Shown in pieces: positions 2,503 through 14,522 of a stretch of 36,693 nt of DNA. This DNA is from Kiritimatiellia bacterium. GTDB taxonomy: Bacteria; Verrucomicrobiota; Kiritimatiellia; B70-G9. A program made the position numbers and the translations under genes. How positions within the stretch are numbered: the stretch's first letter is position 1; every line of letters begins with the position of its first letter. Under the pieces are notes generated by a model. That model was not told where the DNA came from. It made no database searches and worked only from the letters and a program-made list of their open reading frames with translations. The stretch is from NCBI GenBank assembly GCA_029934055.1, contig JAOZMZ010000004.1, positions 1-36,693 on the forward strand, in the 5' to 3' direction.

Positions 2503-3774
2503 ATGAAAGACAAGCTCTCCATCGCCGTCGGCGCCGATCACGGCGGATTCGAACTCAAGCAGGCACTGATCCCCTTTCTGCGCTCCCTGGGACACGAGGT
2601 AAAGGACTGCGGCACTCACGACACCACGCCGGTTGATTATCCGCTCTTCGCCCTGGCGGTGGCCCGGCGCGTGGCCTCCGGCGAATGCGATTTCGGGATC
2701 ATGGTGGACGGTGCCGGCATCGGCTCGGCGATTACGGCGAACAAGGTGCCGGGAATCCGCGCCGCGGCGGTGTACAACGAAAAACTGGCCCTCAACAGCC
2801 GGGAGCATAACGACGCCAACGTATTGACTCTCGGATCGCAGTACATTACTCTTGAGCAAGCCCGGACGGTGGTGAGGGCTTTCCTCACCCACGAGTGCAC
2901 GCTGGAGCGGCACCGCCGCCGGGTGGGGTTGATAGAGGCCATCGAACGCAGTCCGTCGGGGATCCCCGCGGGCGTCGAAGGTGCGGGAGCGGAGAAAGAA
3001 ATGGATCTGGATCCTGAAGACATCGGCCGCATCGCCGAGCGGGTGAAGCAGCTCGTCGGCACGGGATCCGGGGGTGCGCCGGGGGCGCTTCCCTCGCCGG
3101 GCCCGGAAGAAATCGCCAAGATGATCGACCATACCCTTCTCAAGCCGGAGGCCTCCAAGGCAGACATCGAAAAGCTCTGCGATGAAGCCCGGACACACAA
3201 CTTCTACTCGGTCTGCGTCAACCCCGCCTACGTGAGTCTCGCCGCACGCCGCCTGCAGGGGTCCGAGGTCAAGGTCACCTGCGTGGTAGGCTTTCCGCTC
3301 GGGGCCCAGGCGCCCGAGATCAAGGTTCTCGAGGCCCGCAAGGCGTTGCGGGAAGGCGCCCGGGAGATAGACATGGTCATCAATGTCGGCGCGTTGAAAA
3401 GCGGCGATGACGCCCTGGTTTTGCGGGACATACGGGGGGTGGTGGAAGCCTGCATCGAGAGCCGGGCGATCTGCAAAGTGATCCTTGAGACGGCCCTGCT
3501 GACCGACGAAGAAAAGGTACGTGCCTGCCGACTGAGCGTGAAGGCCGGCGCACATTTCGTAAAGACCTCGACGGGATTCGGTCCGGGCGGCGCCACGGAA
3601 GAAGACATTCGGCTGATGAGCCGCGAGGTGGCGCCGAAACTGGGCGTCAAGGCTTCCGGCGGAATACGCAGTTACGACGACGCCGTGCGCATGATCGCGG
3701 CCGGAGCCACGCGCATCGGATCGAGCAGCAGTGTAAAGATAGTCGAAGAAGCACGGGCGCGCACCGGCGGGTGA
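2503..3774 (+). CDS. RpiB-like / deoxyribose-phosphate aldolase (DeoC) fusion enzyme of a microcompartment
   Basis: About 423 residues in three parts. Residues 1-150 are RpiB-like: Asp12-His13 in ADHGG, His102-Asn103 in REHNDAN and the Arg-rich ERHRRRV near 136 are conserved. The E. coli motif CGTGVG, with its catalytic Cys and Thr, reads DGAGIG here (Asp69, Ala71). Residues 167-186 form an amphipathic helix ([16 protein letters not shown]) flanked by Gly/Ala/Pro-rich linkers, typical of an encapsulation peptide. Residues about 200-423 are DeoC, with Asp290 in EIDMVIN, Schiff-base Lys358-equivalent Lys354 in [12 protein letters not shown] and Lys383 in VKASGG. DeoC cleaves 2-deoxyribose 5-phosphate to glyceraldehyde 3-phosphate and acetaldehyde. 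It is the first gene of the shell operon, which suggests cargo. A TTG at 2491 with a better-spaced GAGG is an alternative start. The role of the RpiB half is open. Confidence 0.92.
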
Positions 3775-4555: not shown

Positions 4556-4852
4556 ATGGCTGAAGCATTAGGAATGATAGAAACCCGCTCGTTTCCGGCG
4601 GTGGTCGAAGCCGCCGACGCCATGGTCAAAGCCGCCAAGGTCGAACTGGTGACCTACGAGAAGACCGGCGGCGGATATACCTCCGTGGTCGTCCGCGGTG
4701 ATGTCGCCGCGGTCAAGGCGGCCTGCGAGGCCGGACAGATCGCCGCCGGCCGCGTCGGCGAAGTGGTCGCCGTCCACGTGATCGCCCGGCCGCACACCAA
4801 CGTGGATGCCGTGCTGCCGCTCGGACGGGCTCCGGAAACGAAAAAGAAATGA
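4556..4852 (+). CDS. hexameric microcompartment shell protein (BMC-H)
   Basis: 98 residues, the usual size for a single-domain BMC-H protein such as PduA or EutM. It opens with the hallmark [21 protein letters not shown] and has the pore-loop pattern KTGGGYTS at residues 36-43, where PduA-like proteins have K-x-G-S-G. Hexamers of this protein should form most of the facet area. It is the only BMC-H gene in the cluster. ATG 4556 fits the family N-terminus exactly and has GAGAGG six bases upstream. The short Lys-rich C-terminus (ETKKK) is unremarkable. Confidence 0.96.
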
Positions 4853-4878: not shown

Positions 4879-5181
4879 ATGAACCTCGGCAAAGTCGTCG
4901 GCACGGTGGTCTCGACGCGCAAGGAGCAAAGCCTCGAGGGGCTTAAACTCCAACTGGTGAAATACGTTGACGAACACGGCAAGGAAACCGGGGCCCAGGT
5001 CGTCGCCGTAGACACCGTCGGCGCCGGCCCCGGAGAAATGGTGCTCGTGGCCTGCGGCAGCTCCGCACGCCAGACGACCGCCACCGACAAACGGCCGTGT
5101 GACGCGGTCATAATGGCCATCGTGGACTCGTGGAACGTCGGCGATCGCACTGTCTACCGCAAGTCGGAAACCGACCGGTAA
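4879..5181 (+). CDS. pentameric vertex protein (BMC-P, EutN/CcmL family), copy 1
   Basis: 100 residues of the EutN/CcmL fold: an N-terminal MNLGKVVGTVVSTRK strand, the GAGPGEMVLVACGSSAR signature in the middle and a C-terminal AIVDSW strand. Such proteins form pentamers that cap the vertices of the icosahedral shell. This copy matches the family best among the three encoded here. It follows BMC-H by 26 bp and precedes the aldehyde dehydrogenase. Confidence 0.95.
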   Translation: MNLGKVVGTVVSTRKEQSLEGLKLQLVKYVDEHGKETGAQVVAVDTVGAGPGEMVLVACGSSARQTTATDKRPCDAVIMAIVDSWNVGDRTVYRKSETDR

Positions 5182-5266: not shown

Positions 5267-6712
5267 ATGGCCAGACTGAGTGACCGGGAAATCGAAGAAA
5301 TCGCCCGGCGCATCGCCGCCGACATAACCGGGGCGCCGACCAACGCTTCCCCCGGTGCTGCGCCGCCTCCGACTTCGTCTTCCGCCATGTCGGGAATATT
5401 CGCCTCGGTCGACGAAGCTGTGCGTGCCGCATCCGAAGCCCAACCGCGCTTCGCCGCTCTCACCCTCGAAAAACGCGGGGAAATCATAGCTTCCATCCGC
5501 GCCAGGATGCTGGCCGAAGCCACCGCCCTGGCGCGCGCCGCCTACGAGGAGACCGGGCTGGGCCGCTTCGAAGACAAAATAATGAAAAACGAACTGGTCG
5601 CCCGCAAGACGCCCGGGATCGAGGATCTGCATCCGACCGCCTACAGCGGTGATCACGGCCTGACCATCTGCGAGCCGGCGCCCTTCGGCGTGATCGGGGC
5701 CATCACCCCCTGCACCAACCCCACTTCGACCATCATCTGCAACTCGATCGCCATGCTTGCGGCCGGAAACACCGTTGTCTTCAACGTGCATCCCACCGCC
5801 CGTAACTGTTCCAAGCTGACCATTCAGCTCGTCAACCAGGCGGTGACCGCCGCCGGCGGTCCTCCCAACACGGTCACCGGCGTGGAGAACCCCACCATCG
5901 AAAGCGCCCAGCAGCTCATGCGCCATCCGGCGGTGCGCCTTGTGGTGGTCACCGGCGGCGGGGGCGTCGTCAAGGCGGCCATGGAAAGCGGCAAGCGCGC
6001 CATTTGTGCCGGGCCGGGCAACCCGCCGGTCGTCGTCGACGAGACCGCCGACATCGAAAAGGCCGCCCGCGACATCGTGCTCGGAGCCTCGACCGACAAC
6101 AACATCATCTGCGTCGACGAAAAGGAAGTGATCGTCGTCGAATCCGTCGCCGACACACTCTTGCAGGCCATGGCCCGCAACAACGCGGTGATCATCGGCA
6201 AGGATCGCCTGAGTGCGCTCGAAAAGGTGATCTTCACGGAAGTCCACGGGCCGCGCAAACCCGCCACCGTCAACCGCGAACTCATCGGCAAGAACGCCGA
6301 CCTGATCCTCTCGCGCATCGGCTTGAATGTGCCGGCCACGATCCGCCTCGGAATAGTCGAAGTCAATGAAGATCATCCCCTGCTGTGGACCGAACAGATG
6401 ATGCCGATCCTTCCGGTTGTGCGGGTGCCGGACGCCGATTACGCCATCGACCTGGCCGTCAAGGTCGAGGGCGGCAACCGCCATTCGTTCATCATGCACT
6501 CGCGCAATCTCGACAATCTCAGCCGCATGGCCCGCGAGTGCAACGCGAGTATCTTCGTGAAAAACGGACGTTCCCAAGCCGGGCTCGGCTTCGGCGGCGA
6601 GGGCTACTGCTCCTTTACGATCGCCAGCCCCACCGGCGAAGGACTCACCGGTCCGCGGACGTTCTCGCGCAGTCGGCGTTGCGTCCTGGTTGACCATTTC
6701 CGAATCGTGTAA
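5267..6712 (+). CDS. CoA-acylating aldehyde dehydrogenase of the microcompartment (EutE/PduP-like)
   Basis: 481 residues. Residues 4-22 (LSDREIEEIARRIAADI) form an amphipathic helix followed by a Pro/Ser/Ala linker (about 23-42), the layout of a shell-targeting encapsulation peptide in PduP. The catalytic domain starts near residue 43 (SGIFASVDEAV). The cofactor region contains GAITPCTNPTSTIICNS (about 144-160), the nucleophile is Cys282 in NNIICVDEKEV, and the C-terminus RCVLVDHFRIV matches EutE/PduP. The expected reaction is aldehyde + NAD+ + CoA to acyl-CoA + NADH; here the likely substrate is acetaldehyde released by DeoC. AAAGGGG lies seven bases upstream of ATG 5267. The stop overlaps the next ATG by one base, suggesting coupled translation. 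Confidence 0.95.
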   Translation: MARLSDREIEEIARRIAADITGAPTNASPGAAPPPTSSSAMSGIFASVDEAVRAASEAQPRFAALTLEKRGEIIASIRARMLAEATALARAAYEETGLGRFEDKIMKNELVARKTPGIEDLHPTAYSGDHGLTICEPAPFGVIGAITPCTNPTSTIICNSIAMLAAGNTVVFNVHPTARNCSKLTIQLVNQAVTAAGGPPNTVTGVENPTIESAQQLMRHPAVRLVVVTGGGGVVKAAMESGKRAICAGPGNPPVVVDETADIEKAARDIVLGASTDNNIICVDEKEVIVVESVADTLLQAMARNNAVIIGKDRLSALEKVIFTEVHGPRKPATVNRELIGKNADLILSRIGLNVPATIRLGIVEVNEDHPLLWTEQMMPILPVVRVPDADYAIDLAVKVEGGNRHSFIMHSRNLDNLSRMARECNASIFVKNGRSQAGLGFGGEGYCSFTIASPTGEGLTGPRTFSRSRRCVLVDHFRIV

Positions 6713-7341
6713 TGAAGAAGTACCCGGCCATCGCCCTTCTCGAATTCGACGACATCCCGGCTGGGATGACCACCGCCGATGCCATGCTCAAGGAATCACC
6801 CGTGGCGGTCATTCGTACCGGAACCATCGGCGGAGCCGGATTTCTCACCATCCTGGCCGGCACCACGGCGGCCGTGCAGGAAGCGCTGCGCGAAGGGCTT
6901 CTTCTCGCCGGCGAACGCCTGCGCGATCATGCCTTCCTGCCCGACGTTCATCAGGCGCTCTACGACGCGGTCCTCGAAGCGCACCGCAATCCGCCGGGCG
7001 GCGCAATCGGCGTGCTCACCACCTCCACGGTGACCGCAAACGTCCTGGCCCTCGAACGCGCGCTCAAGGGCACTCCGGTAACCCTCGTGGAAGTGCGGCT
7101 CGGAGACCCCGCCCTGGCCGGACAAGCACTCGGCATCGTCAGCGGGGAACTGCGCGACGTACAGGCCGCCATGGAACTCGCACTGGAAGTGATCGCGGCA
7201 CGCGCGGTGAGCGCCTCGCACCGCATCATCACCGCACCACACGAGGCTTTCCTGCGCCAGCTCGGGCAAACCAGCGATATCTTCACCGCCGCGGCGGTGG
7301 AACTCGAAGGAGAAAAACCGGCCACCCCGGTTTCGCAGTAG
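6712..7341 (+). CDS. tandem-domain microcompartment shell protein (BMC-T), copy 2, divergent
   Basis: 209 residues with two BMC-like domains: about 4-70 (PAIALLEFDDIPAGMTTADA) and 97-165 (GAIGVLTTSTVTANVLALER). A helical connector lies between them and a C-terminal tail ends in EKPATPVSQ. It is clearly different from the BMC-T at 3827-4450 and contains no cysteine, so it cannot hold the iron-sulfur cluster known in PduT-type trimers. Trimers should occupy shell facets, possibly with a specific pore. Its ATG overlaps the dehydrogenase stop codon (TAATG), so the two are probably made together. The second domain is divergent, so the family call rests on fold-like pattern and context. Confidence 0.85.
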   Translation: MKKYPAIALLEFDDIPAGMTTADAMLKESPVAVIRTGTIGGAGFLTILAGTTAAVQEALREGLLLAGERLRDHAFLPDVHQALYDAVLEAHRNPPGGAIGVLTTSTVTANVLALERALKGTPVTLVEVRLGDPALAGQALGIVSGELRDVQAAMELALEVIAARAVSASHRIITAPHEAFLRQLGQTSDIFTAAAVELEGEKPATPVSQ

Positions 7342-7351
7342 GACAAGGATC

Positions 7352-7639
7352 ATGAAGCTCGCGGAAGTCATCGGACAAGTCATTCCGGCCCGCGTCTATG
7401 ACGGGCTGGAAAGCGTCCCCATGCTTCTCATCCGTCCCCTGGATGAACACCGCCATCCTGCGGGAAAGACGCTCGTGGCCGCCGACAGCACGCGCATGGC
7501 CGGGCCGGGCGAACTCGTCTACTACGAAGGCGGCCGCGAAGCCGCCCTGGCACTGGACCCATGGTTCGTTCCGGTCGACCACGCCATCGTTGGGATCGTC
7601 GACTCGGTGCACGTGACTTCCGGAGAAGACGCGCCATGA
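7352..7639 (+). CDS. pentameric vertex protein (BMC-P, EutN/CcmL family), copy 2, divergent
   Basis: 95 residues with EutN-like ends (MKLAEVIGQVIPARV and AIVGIVDSV). The centre is altered: the usual GxGxGE..GSSAR stretch reads MAGPGELVYYEGGREAALAL. It starts 10 bp after the second BMC-T gene, with AAGGA upstream, and its TGA overlaps the next ATG as ATGA. It likely forms a distinct pentamer, or a heteromer with the other two copies. Confidence 0.88.
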   Translation: MKLAEVIGQVIPARVYDGLESVPMLLIRPLDEHRHPAGKTLVAADSTRMAGPGELVYYEGGREAALALDPWFVPVDHAIVGIVDSVHVTSGEDAP

Positions 7640-7902
7640 TGATCGGAAAAGTCAGCGGAGAAATATACTCCACCATCAACCATCCTTTCTACGACGGGCG
7701 CAAGCTGCTCATCGTCAGCCTGGAACATCCTGCAGGCGGCTACATCATCGCCGTCGACAGCGTGGGAGCCGGTGTTGGAGAACGCGTGCTGGTGCTCGAT
7801 GAAGGCAATGGCGCCCGGCAGGTGTTCGCCGCCGACAATGCGCCGGTCCGTTCGGCCATAGTCGGCATTATCGATTCCGTGGACGTACCCGGCCGCGACT
7901 GA
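7636..7902 (+). CDS. pentameric vertex protein (BMC-P, EutN/CcmL family), copy 3
   Basis: 88 residues, beginning MMIGKVSGEIYSTINHPF and carrying IAVDSVGAGVGERVLVLD followed by GNGARQVF, a variant of the EutN signature, with a C-terminal SAIVGIIDSVDV strand. The start ATG overlaps the previous stop (ATGA), so it is probably translationally coupled; ATG 7639 is a possible alternative. It is the last gene of the shell operon. Confidence 0.92.
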   Translation: MMIGKVSGEIYSTINHPFYDGRKLLIVSLEHPAGGYIIAVDSVGAGVGERVLVLDEGNGARQVFAADNAPVRSAIVGIIDSVDVPGRD

Positions 7903-12229: not shown

Positions 12230-13134
12230 CCGCAAAGGAACGCGGCCGCGCTCATAACCGGCTTGCCCGGCGGCTGCACCGCAAGGACCCGCAACCCACC
12301 ACGCCCGGTTCCCAGAAGGGGCCCATCACGGCCGATCTCGATCACCTCGCCCGGCCTGCCACCGCCGTTCTCCTCGACCCGCGAACGTCTCACGTGCAAC
12401 ATGCCGCCGTGCAGACCCGGCACGCTGGTATAACATCCCGGCCAAGGCTGAAAGCCGCGGATGCGGTTATGTATCGCTGCGGCCTCAAGCGACCAGTTGA
12501 TCAAGCCGTCTTCTTTTTTCAACCGGGGGGCGAACGTCGCCTCGGAGCTCTTCTGGGCGTGAACCGCGACCTTCCCCTTTTCGAGCCCGTGCAAGGCCCG
12601 CAGCAGCAGCTCGGCGCCGAGGACCTCCAGCCTTCCCATCAACTCCGGCGCCGTTTCATCGGGTCCGATGGAAACGGATTCCTGCAGAATTATGTCTCCG
12701 GCATCCATCTCTTCGGTAACGAAGAGAACGCTCACGCCGCTGGTCTTTTCGCCTTTGGCTATGGCCCACTGCACGGGGGCCGCCCCACGGTATTTCGGCA
12801 ACAGGGACGGGTGCACATTGATAACTCCCCGCGGCGGCAGTTCCAGCACTTCGGGCGGGATGAAGATGCCGAAATCCGCCGTCACCATCACGTCCGGCCG
12901 GAGTTCACGCAAGCGTGCCACGATATCCTCAGCTCGCAGGCTGTCGCATTCCAGGACCGGCAAGCCTCGCCGCCGGGCCAGTTCTTTCACCGGGCACTCC
13001 CGCAAACGGCGGTGTCGGCCCGCCGGCCGGTCCGGACGGCTAACCACGGAAACCACATCGTGGACGCCTTCGTCCAACAAAGCCGCCAGAACTGCGCGTC
13101 CCAACCCGCCCGATCCGAGGAAAACGATTCTCAT
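12148..13134 (-). CDS. fmt: methionyl-tRNA formyltransferase Fmt
   Basis: 328 residues. It formylates Met-tRNA for translation initiation using 10-formyl-tetrahydrofolate. The N-terminal domain starts MRIVFLGSGGLGRAVLAALL and holds Asn106 and His108 in INVHPSLLPKYRGAAP and Asp144 in EEMDAGDIILQ. The C-terminal domain ends near FLCGHRVSVGDVWG. The last dozen residues are an extra Gly/Ala/Ser tail lying in the overlap with the TPR gene. No def gene lies beside it, although fmt and def are often paired. Confidence 0.95.
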   Translation of the reverse strand: MRIVFLGSGGLGRAVLAALLDEGVHDVVSVVSRPDRPAGRHRRLRECPVKELARRRGLPVLECDSLRAEDIVARLRELRPDVMVTADFGIFIPPEVLELPPRGVINVHPSLLPKYRGAAPVQWAIAKGEKTSGVSVLFVTEEMDAGDIILQESVSIGPDETAPELMGRLEVLGAELLLRALHGLEKGKVAVHAQKSSEATFAPRLKKEDGLINWSLEAAAIHNRIRGFQPWPGCYTSVPGLHGGMLHVRRSRVEENGGGRPGEVIEIGRDGPLLGTGRGGLRVLAVQPPGKPVMSAAAFLCGHRVSVGDVWGRSSPDSAGAGEDAGGA

Positions 13135-13160
13135 TGCTCAACCTTTCCCATTCCGCCGTT

Positions 13161-13170
13161 CACGTACGTG
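13161..13170. other. perfect 10-bp palindrome between fmt and the alcohol dehydrogenase gene
   Basis: CACGTACGTG is a perfect palindrome about 30 bp upstream of fmt in the divergent intergenic region. Only one copy is seen, so an operator role is speculative. Confidence 0.2.
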
Positions 13171-13274
13171 CCACACCGCCCTCCGGTTCCCTCCGTCAAC
13201 ATATGCTGCGTCGGCCGCCGCCGTTCGTCAATCCACGGGATTCCCTCTCCCGGCCGACTACGCAAAAAAGGAAG

Positions 13275-13303
13275 GTGAAATATTCGCCTTCAGCCCCTAT
13301 AAT
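13275..13303 (+). promoter_or_regulatory. promoter of the iron-containing alcohol dehydrogenase gene
   Basis: GTGAAA (13275-13280), exactly 17 bp, then a perfect TATAAT (13298-13303). The start point would be about 13310, leaving almost no leader before ATG 13314, and no Shine-Dalgarno sequence precedes that ATG. A leaderless or near-leaderless transcript is implied. Confidence 0.55.
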
Positions 13304-13313
13304 GCCTCTGACA

Positions 13314-14522
13314 ATGAAAAACAGCCACATCGAAGACAAGGCCTACGAAGCCATCGAATACATACGGGCTCAGGGGCTCCTCGCACCTACCACGATCGTT
13401 TTCGGCAGCCACAAGCTCCGTGAGCTGGGCGAACTGGCGTTGCCCCATGCCCACCGTGGCAAGGCCCTGGTGATATTCGGGGCCAATTCAGCCAGAAAAA
13501 GCGGACTCACTGACCGTGTCGACGCACTTCTGTCACGTTACACGATCAAAATGGTTCCCTGGTTCGGCGTTGTCCGCGAACCGACGGTCCGGATAGTCGA
13601 CGAGGCGGCCGCCCTCGCGCGCCGCGAGAAGGTCGATCTGATAATCGGTATCGGTGGAGGCAGCGTTATCGACTGCGCGAAGGCCGTCGCGGCCCTGGCG
13701 GTCAATGAAGGCTCAGCCGCGGATTATCTCGAAGGCATCGGCAGGGGCCTGAAGATCACTAACCAGCCTCTCCCGATGTTCGCCATCCCGACAACCGCGG
13801 CCACCGGTGCGGAAATGACGAAAAACGCCGTAATCTGTGTGCCGGAAAAGGGTTACAAGAAAAGCATGCGCGACCCCAAACTCGTACCCACGGTCGCCCT
13901 CGTTGATCCCGAACTGTGTCTGAACCTCCCGGCCCATGTCACCGCCAACGGCGGCATGGACGCCCTCACCCACCTTCTGGAATCATGCATCACTACACGT
14001 CGCCGGCCGGAAGTGACCGAGCTGGCACACCGCGCGCTTCGCAACGTCCAACTCGGCCTCTCGGTGGCCTTCGAGGATCCCGGCAACATACTGGCGCGGG
14101 AACGCACCGCTCTGGTAAGCATGCTCGGCGGGGTCTGCCTGGCGAACAGCGGGCTGGCGATGGCCCACGGAATCGCCGCCGCGCTGGGCGCGCTCCACGA
14201 TGTGCCGCATGGGTTGGCCTGTGGAATTCTCCTGCCGCACACACTCCGTTACAACGCTTCCGCCTGCAGCGACGAACTCGCCGGGGCATTGGCGGCGTTT
14301 CTCAACCAGGTCGAGCCACGCGACAATTCGATATCCGACGGCATCGAAGCCGTTGACAACCTCAGGCGCTGGTTACAGATCCCGCCCGACCTGAAGTACC
14401 TGCGTCTCAGTGCCGACGACATACGCACCATCGCCGAACATTCCATGGGCAGCAGCATGTCCGGCAATCCCATACCCATGGACGTCCCGCGCACCATCGA
14501 ATTCCTCGAAACGCTGGTATAG
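13314..14522 (+). CDS. iron-containing alcohol dehydrogenase
   Basis: About 402 residues of the Fe-ADH (group III) family. The NAD(P) loop is IIGIGGGSVIDCAKAV (about 110-125). The metal ligands Asp216 and His220 lie in GGMDALTH, with His285 in AMAHG and His299 in DVPHG, matching FucO. The likely reaction is NAD(P)H-dependent interconversion of an aldehyde and an alcohol; the substrate cannot be read from sequence. Before the usual family start (TTIVFGS) there is an extra N-terminal helix, residues 5-22. ATG 13314 is preferred because a TATAAT box ends ten bases before it; ATG 13302 and GTG 13275 are alternatives. It lies 5.4 kb from the shell operon and could regenerate NAD+ for it, but that link is inferred. 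Confidence 0.9.
   Translation: MKNSHIEDKAYEAIEYIRAQGLLAPTTIVFGSHKLRELGELALPHAHRGKALVIFGANSARKSGLTDRVDALLSRYTIKMVPWFGVVREPTVRIVDEAAALARREKVDLIIGIGGGSVIDCAKAVAALAVNEGSAADYLEGIGRGLKITNQPLPMFAIPTTAATGAEMTKNAVICVPEKGYKKSMRDPKLVPTVALVDPELCLNLPAHVTANGGMDALTHLLESCITTRRRPEVTELAHRALRNVQLGLSVAFEDPGNILARERTALVSMLGGVCLANSGLAMAHGIAAALGALHDVPHGLACGILLPHTLRYNASACSDELAGALAAFLNQVEPRDNSISDGIEAVDNLRRWLQIPPDLKYLRLSADDIRTIAEHSMGSSMSGNPIPMDVPRTIEFLETLV

Follow-up and report, generated by a model that had tools for sequence, protein, structure and literature searches.

The SPU type of microcompartment is among the most widespread ones, with more than 280 loci in 26 phyla, and it is defined by BMC shell genes together with an aldolase of pfam01791, a protein of pfam02502 and an aldehyde dehydrogenase; pfam01791 and pfam02502 are common to all SPU subtypes (PMC8217296). 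The pfam02502 protein of these loci has been described as RpiB, isomerising ribose-5-phosphate (PMC8217296; PMC4207490), and an RpiB-DeoC fusion was already noted in Marinimicrobia in 2014 (PMC4207490). Our searches of the literature on SPU and RpiB brought up only the surveys of 2014 and 2021 as relevant, and we saw no mention of a missing catalytic Cys. Regarding the catalytic residues of the family, the C65A mutant of LacAB is inactive and its T67A mutant is slowed 20-fold; the Cys is in contact with O1 and the Thr with both O1 and O2, and His96 takes part in ring opening (PMC3755991). The base of M. tuberculosis RpiB is Glu75, position 72 in E. coli numbering (PMC3755991), and in the RpiB of C. 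immitis the carboxylate of a malonate lies beside the Cys, held by backbone amides, a conserved Asp and the partner's Asn (PMC3212906).

The window analyzed here, the whole stretch of 36,693 nucleotides from a Kiritimatiellia bacterium, contains all the elements of the SPU definition, that is, shell genes, pfam01791, pfam02502 and aldehyde dehydrogenase. The features of the locus are as follows:

2503-3774, + strand: RpiB-DeoC fusion ORF; alternative TTG start at 2491, stop ending at 3774
2503-2958, + strand: RpiB-like domain of the Asp66 subclass, fusion residues 1-152 (PF02502, E = 1e-48)
2707-2727, + strand: DGAGIGS motif, with Asp69 (E. coli Cys66), Ala71 (Thr68) and Ser75 (Ile72)
2794-2796, + strand: codon of Asn98 (E. 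coli Leu95), one helical turn ahead of His102
2971-3102, + strand: linker with an encapsulation-peptide-like helix (residues 171-186, 3013-3060)
3103-3774, + strand: DeoC (deoxyribose-phosphate aldolase) domain, by TIGR00126, Foldseek and catalytic residues
3827-4450, + strand: BMC-T-like shell protein (PF00936)
4556-4852, + strand: BMC-H shell protein (PF00936, E = 9e-29)
4879-5181, + strand: BMC-P shell vertex protein 1 (PF03319, E = 2e-31)
5267-6712, + strand: CoA-acylating-type aldehyde dehydrogenase (PF00171; NF011927, 657 bits against a cut-off of 403)
6712-7341, + strand: tandem BMC-domain (PduT-like) shell protein, two PF00936 stretches (TIGR02526, E = 2e-23, under cut-off)
7352-7639, + strand: BMC-P shell vertex protein 2 (PF03319)
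7636-7902, + strand: BMC-P shell vertex protein 3 (PF03319), start position uncertain

Of the two candidate starts of the fusion, the ATG at 2503 is more probable than the TTG. Residues 6-149 match PF02502 with 165 bits against 24.7, and this half falls within the RpiB/LacA/LacB fold family (TIGR00689, 150 against 88.3); with the TIGR01120 equivalog, whose cut-off is 138.65, it scores 132.9 and L038, of the same subclass, 155.9. Residues 204-414 are DeoC (TIGR00126 equivalog, 287.5 bits, cut-off 117.3; PF01791), with equivalents of Asp102, Lys167 (Schiff base), Lys201 and Cys47 kept and the DERA 8qps as the top Foldseek match (TM 0.94 on target). In an AlphaFold2 model of the fusion, pLDDT is about 96 across residues 6-149 and falls below 50 in the linker at residues 157-169 and 186-194, with the helix 171-186 in between; the predicted model supports the domain layout only. 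The BMC-T-like gene occurs in 22 of the 25 other fusion genomes of the class and adjoins the fusion whenever both share a contig. About 5 kb beyond the shell genes, at 13134-14522 (+), lies an iron-containing alcohol dehydrogenase gene, which could recycle NADH for the compartment.

The preliminary description of this DNA had claimed that DGAGIG replaces the CGTGVG of E. coli RpiB, with Asp69 and Ala71 in place of the catalytic Cys and Thr, and that the ring-opening and phosphate-binding residues are kept, and our alignment bore this out. The catalytic loop reads CGTGVGI in E. coli RpiB and DGAGIGS in the window (codons 2707-2709 for Asp69 and 2713-2715 for Ala71), and Asp12, His13, Tyr46, His102, Asn103, Arg136, His137 and Arg140 are retained. 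To the Asp/Ala pair we add Ser72, Asn95 and Thr106, which are Ser75, Asn98 and Thr109 in the window; residues of the subclass are numbered here as in E. coli RpiB, and the signature comprises Asp66, Ala/Val68, Ser72, Asn95 and usually Thr106. Position 72 is Ile in E. coli RpiB and Met in most, and position 106 is Ala in E. coli. A second RpiB of the window genome, on another contig, is ordinary (CTTGIGM) and shares 45% identity with the RpiB half of the fusion. This ordinary RpiB (L002, G000:C16:22719-23159, -) sits in a 741-codon open frame, with similar large frames in relatives, and is probably fused to a further domain.

Searching 97 genomes of the window's class with the whole protein, we found another 25 fusions, with Asp66, Ser72 and Asn95 in 25/25 and Ala68 in 24/25, so that the Asp66 change is neither chance nor a sequencing slip. 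We then scanned the genomes of 84,980 species with a pattern that fixes the Asp and its flanks and leaves positions 68, 72, 95 and 106 free, which gave at least 116 matching stretches. Among the matches listed, the full set of Ala/Val68, Ser72 and Asn95 is present in 103 of the 109 usable Asp66 domains (Thr106 in about 89%), and the full-signature domains span at least 24 named phyla plus unnamed lineages; the alignment that had been suggested as a check shows Asp/Ala to be the mark of a conserved subclass. Counted over 136 distinct Asp66 sequences, Ala68 appears in 127, Val68 in 4, Ser72 in 134, Asn95 in 131 and Thr106 in 121, whereas 50 Cys66 sequences have Thr/Ser68 in 49, Ser72 in none, and chiefly Leu, Met or Gln, also Ala and Tyr, at position 95. 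Neither the catalytic Cys66 nor the Glu at 72 of M. tuberculosis is found in the subclass, which has Asp66 and Ser72, nor is the Thr/Ser68 that serves RpiB for the oxyanion and the O1/O2 contact. The common pocket residues are more strictly kept in the Asp66 subclass than in the Cys66 group, with Asp9, His10, Tyr43, His99, Asn100, Arg133, His134 and Arg137 conserved at 0.98 or more.

The lost Cys and Thr positions are not taken over by another Cys, Thr or Glu, which would have spoken against the preliminary description, and the new residues in the pocket are Ser72 and Asn95. No Cys or Glu has become conserved anew in the subclass; at position 73, Cys occurs in 56 and Ala in 73 of 151, and otherwise Ser or Thr. 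Replacement of Cys66 by some other Cys or Glu was rejected on the variability of position 73 and the lack of a new Glu. On the other hand, the change does not belong to the fusion: stand-alone RpiB-like members have the same residues, just as strictly, and the signature is therefore unrelated to the fusion.

In a tree built without the five signature columns, the subclass forms one side of a branch with ultrafast bootstrap 94 and SH-aLRT 88, which is not a starred branch. The RpiBs of three Phycisphaerales (L050, L062 and L083) have Asp66 with Thr/Ser68 (DGT/DGS) and without Asn95, they group with the Cys66 sequences in the tree, and shell genes are present in 0/3 of their genomes. A single origin of Asp66 was rejected, given that this trio and LacA fall with the Cys66 group, and Asp66 alone apparently arose more than once. 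Judged from sequence, it is only the full residue set that marks the subclass, Asp66 alone being insufficient. Asp stands at the Cys position in Lactococcus LacA too (DAYGAGP), and LacAB has one active site, so the subclass might be a decayed half of the LacA kind, forming an active site jointly with an ordinary RpiB. However, LacA lost His10 and Tyr43 and is without Ser72 and Asn95, all four of which are present in the subclass; it lies elsewhere in the tree on a long branch; a Cys66-type copy next to shell genes was seen in only one examined locus (L202, Cloacimonadota), and the window locus has no Cys66 partner RpiB. We give almost no credence to such a partnership, and a dead half of this kind was rejected on the retained His10 and Tyr43. 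RpiBs of the M. tuberculosis type (GGSGNGE) occur in several genomes of the window's class (L215-L219, L221 and L222).

We then asked how closely the subclass is tied to the shell. Among the matches listed, 103 signature loci of up to 8 kb include DeoC in 82 and shell genes in 60, and BMC vertex genes (PF03319) were present in 17/17 tested signature genomes, including those without nearby shell genes. In the tested genomes without shell genes within 8 kb, the DeoC or the RpiB bears targeting peptides. A subclass that accompanies DeoC outside microcompartments, as the loci without shell genes in 8 kb could have been read, was rejected, as all such genomes tested have shell genes elsewhere. Among the loci examined of the Cys66-type and M. 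tuberculosis-type RpiBs, only L202 adjoins shell genes; in this microcompartment locus (G129:C31) a signature RpiB (DGVGIGS) is accompanied by a Cys66 RpiB of very divergent sequence (CGSGVGV). N-terminal amphipathic peptides, typical of encapsulation, were found on stand-alone RpiB-like members and on stand-alone DeoC, and the stand-alone subclass members would be lumenal on account of their own peptides. The consensus of the linker helix in the fusions, DLSPxDxxRIAxRVxxLL, resembles the N-terminal peptides of stand-alone DeoC in make-up.

Other features of these loci can be mentioned here. Stand-alone RpiB-like proteins (L042, L043, L110, L135 and others) have a conserved N-terminal stretch, approximately LxVPxGAxxTPLARxxAxERxVxL, that follows the targeting peptide and precedes the RpiB domain, and stand-alone SPU DeoCs (L076, L068, L092, L042 and L075) have in the equivalent place, before the DeoC domain, a Cys-rich stretch such as CGPGCCECADGRCVRDC, which is present in many stand-alone SPU DeoCs and absent in the window fusion. 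In L069 (G141, a MAG) a signature RpiB adjoins shell genes and no DeoC was found anywhere in the genome, possibly a variant compartment. In 13 loci, most of them of Chloroflexota (L065, L096, L104, L056, L131, L044, L126, L149, L119, L085, L122, L103 and L082), the RpiB-like gene has a Peptidase_S26 (signal-peptidase-I-like) gene no more than about 1 kb away.

Relatives that have lost the shell were informative. Counting the window's, 25 of 26 fusion genomes have BMC vertex genes; the one that differs, G027 (95% complete, with the fusion inside a 102 kb contig), has neither PF03319 nor PF00936. Its fusion is the only one with Y43C, A68E, T106A and R133L, the catalytic residues of its DeoC are intact, and, compared with its family mates, this fusion is 10-14 points less similar in the RpiB half than in the DeoC half, the mates differing by about 7 on average. 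G009 (93% complete), of the same genus as the shell-bearing G096, has no shell domains and no RpiB half, and its orthologous DeoC (71%) adjoins deoB; shell-less deoC-deoB operons of other families (G032 and G034, the latter also with nucleoside phosphorylase) are likewise without RpiB. From these four genomes, the RpiB half appears dispensable for DeoC and retained only with the shell. A requirement of the RpiB half for the folding or activity of DeoC is unlikely, as G009 and other relatives keep DeoC without it. Beside the deoB-deoC pair of G009 lies a DUF4380 protein (L275:4355-5428, -), weakly matched by a mutarotase model of NCBIfam (49 bits, cut-off 550), which does not adjoin deoB in the other relatives read. 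Altogether, we are highly confident of the joint claim that the Asp66 subclass exists and depends on the shell.

A domain that has lost base and Thr with its pocket fully kept, that is fused to or lies beside DeoC, and that is needed only with the shell could also be non-catalytic, binding 2-deoxyribose 5-phosphate (dR5P) and capturing or channelling it in the lumen, or serving as a scaffold that packs DeoC. We consider this improbable: His99 is invariant in the signature class, the remodelling of five positions (Asp, Ala, Ser, Asn and Thr) indicates chemistry and not mere loss, and stand-alone members with their own targeting peptide require no scaffold role for DeoC.

The neighboring genes point to deoxynucleoside breakdown. 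The usual locus in the window's class comprises rpiB-deoC, shell genes, aldehyde dehydrogenase, shell genes, deoB and pyrimidine-nucleoside phosphorylase; in at least seven relatives it runs on to phosphopentomutase (deoB) and the phosphorylase, and in others directly to deoB. In G027 both genes still adjoin the shell-less fusion and reach the NCBIfam cut-offs. The deoB of the window genome (G000:C56:2650-3806, -) lies outside the SPU locus, unlike that of the relatives, and its match is split between two frames, with profile positions 2-101 in one and 100-372 in the other, possibly by a frameshift or an assembly error. Four Marinimicrobia encode, 11-46 bases from rpiB-deoC, a regulator that among solved structures comes closest to B. 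subtilis DeoR (2e-65); the Lys of DeoR that we presume to bind the effector is Asn in all four. The locus of Pseudogracilibacillus auburnensis holds an ABC sugar importer, a ribokinase-type kinase, DeoR (equivalog, 425 bits, cut-off 420), PduL, aldehyde dehydrogenase, triose-phosphate isomerase, the RpiB-like protein and DeoC. The suggestion that dR5P is the substrate context is supported, since these loci carry deoB, nucleoside phosphorylase and regulators of the DeoR type. A pathway from (deoxy)nucleoside through dR1P to dR5P, then to acetaldehyde and G3P, and on to acetyl-CoA, is well supported as a prediction from these genes, and from it we infer the sugar that the RpiB-like step would handle.

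The triose-phosphate isomerase next to the subclass gene in Pseudogracilibacillus shows that this step is wanted there, and the base of triose-phosphate isomerase is a carboxylate. The equilibrium of DeoC favors synthesis (K = 5000 per M; PMC8403123), which would also speak for the RpiB-like protein itself acting as a triose-phosphate isomerase. But with both in the Pseudogracilibacillus locus, the RpiB-like protein is not that enzyme there, and the residues that bind the C5 phosphate and stack on the furanose are invariant, so that we regard this activity as very improbable.

Our tentative proposal, to which we give somewhat less than even chances, is that the RpiB half belongs to a distinct lumenal subclass that acts on dR5P in deoxyribonucleoside-degrading SPU microcompartments, most likely by opening its ring, as the preliminary description had suggested for this half. 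The furanose form of dR5P would be bound by the retained phosphate-binding arginines and Tyr43; Asp66 would take the proton from the anomeric O1-H, and His99, contributed by the partner subunit, would protonate the ring oxygen. In mutarotases a carboxylate and a histidine work together in much this way. The open-chain aldehyde, the sole form that DeoC attacks, would be set free beside DeoC. As dR5P has no C2 hydroxyl, the usual enediol isomerisation is impossible and Thr68 would not be needed; Ala/Val68 suits a 2-deoxy sugar, since the Thr of LacAB contacts O2. Ordinary isomerisation should be crippled in the subclass, judging from the Cys and Thr mutants of LacAB, and the position of malonate in C. 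immitis RpiB suggests that a carboxylate fits at the Cys66 site. Furanose makes up 99.8% of dR5P, and DeoC acts on the open chain alone (PMC5975929, PMC8403123); ring opening by Asp66 and His99 is therefore consistent with the residues kept and lost.

The chief objection is kinetic: the ring of ribose 5-phosphate opens at 40-100 per second and the kcat of DeoC is 15 per second, so spontaneous opening of dR5P is not expected to limit DeoC turnover (PMC5975929). The step would be relevant only at very high DeoC concentration, that is, inside the shell. We estimate that DeoC at about 1 mM (kcat/KM 1.3e5 per M per s) would use dR5P at about 130 per second, opening then being co-limiting; co-limitation only at the lumenal concentration would also explain the shell dependence. 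It counts against ring opening that DeoC has its own way of opening the ring.

The main rival, in substance the preliminary description's own alternative of Asp69 as base on a different sugar phosphate, is a working aldose-ketose isomerase in which Asp66 is the base. Its substrate would be ribose 5-phosphate or some other pentose 5-phosphate, and the family would then have three catalytic solutions, the other two being Cys66 in E. coli and the Glu at 72 in M. tuberculosis; ribose 5-phosphate brought in by nucleoside breakdown would be cleared or used by this isomerase. Every other catalytic residue is strictly kept, carboxylate bases are known in other isomerases, and the published surveys assign this very reaction. 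Ribose forms are also handled by DeoB and pyrimidine phosphorylase, the broad specificity of DeoB counting toward ribose 5-phosphate as a possible substrate, and the ribokinase-type kinase of the Bacillota locus possibly leaves it as a substrate as well. Moreover, 6 of 68 subclass genomes, most of the six being MAGs, are without both RpiA and another full-length RpiB. However, none of the lumenal enzymes uses the ribulose 5-phosphate that would be formed, and Thr68, worth 20-fold in LacAB, is gone. The genomes also do not depend on the subclass for this activity: in the 68 genomes, which are not independent and many of which are MAGs, RpiA is present in 20/26 without another full-length RpiB versus 2/42 with one (Fisher p = 5e-10). 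The subclass thus seems to be no substitute for housekeeping RpiA or ordinary RpiB, although encapsulation could also explain this, as an encapsulated isomerase might likewise not serve the cytosol. We consider the isomerase rather unlikely.

Returning to ring opening, its fullest form, possible but doubtful, is an RpiB-family enzyme turned into a dedicated dR5P ring-opener (a furanose-phosphate anomerase) that exists only through the shell-packed aldolase in more than 20 phyla and is named ribose-5-phosphate isomerase in databases. Should ring opening prove right, this would be a case in which encapsulation itself makes a new catalytic step necessary. In any case, one of the two signature enzymes of SPU, assumed to be a ribose-5-phosphate isomerase, lacks the residue behind isomerase activity, and a coordinated new active site persists only as long as the shell does. 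Why an isomerase adjoins a deoxyribose aldolase becomes a directly testable question, whose answer would alter annotation across databases.

Compared with known systems, the subclass is a new variant in a known superfamily and compartment type that has been mistaken for ordinary RpiB. With RpiB (EC 5.3.1.6; PF02502, TIGR01120) it shares the fold, the dimer-type active site and Asp9, His10, Tyr43, His99, Asn100, Arg133, His134 and Arg137, but it has Asp66 for Cys, Ala/Val68 for Thr, Ser72, Asn95, Thr106 and lumenal targeting peptides. The M. tuberculosis type (GGSGNGE) has the same fold and also a carboxylate instead of Cys as the likely base or acid, at 72 with Ser at 68, whereas the subclass has it at 66 with Ser at 72 and forms a separate clade. 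LacA also has Asp at the position of Cys66 but needs LacB, while the subclass keeps His10 and Tyr43 and has no partner. With aldose 1-epimerase (GalM) there is likeness only in the proposed chemistry, in which a carboxylate takes the proton of O1-H and a His protonates the ring oxygen, the fold being unrelated; profile searches gave no mutarotase family match for the window protein, whose family and secondary structure are of the RpiB type and not of the GalM type. As in the SPU loci of Axen 2014 and Sutter 2021, DeoC, an RpiB-type protein and aldehyde dehydrogenase occur with a BMC-H/T/P shell. In those surveys the RpiB-type protein is a ribose-5-phosphate isomerase; here its residues show a subclass of its own, without the catalytic Cys. 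New with respect to the surveys, deoB and nucleoside phosphorylase are tied to the locus in the window's class.
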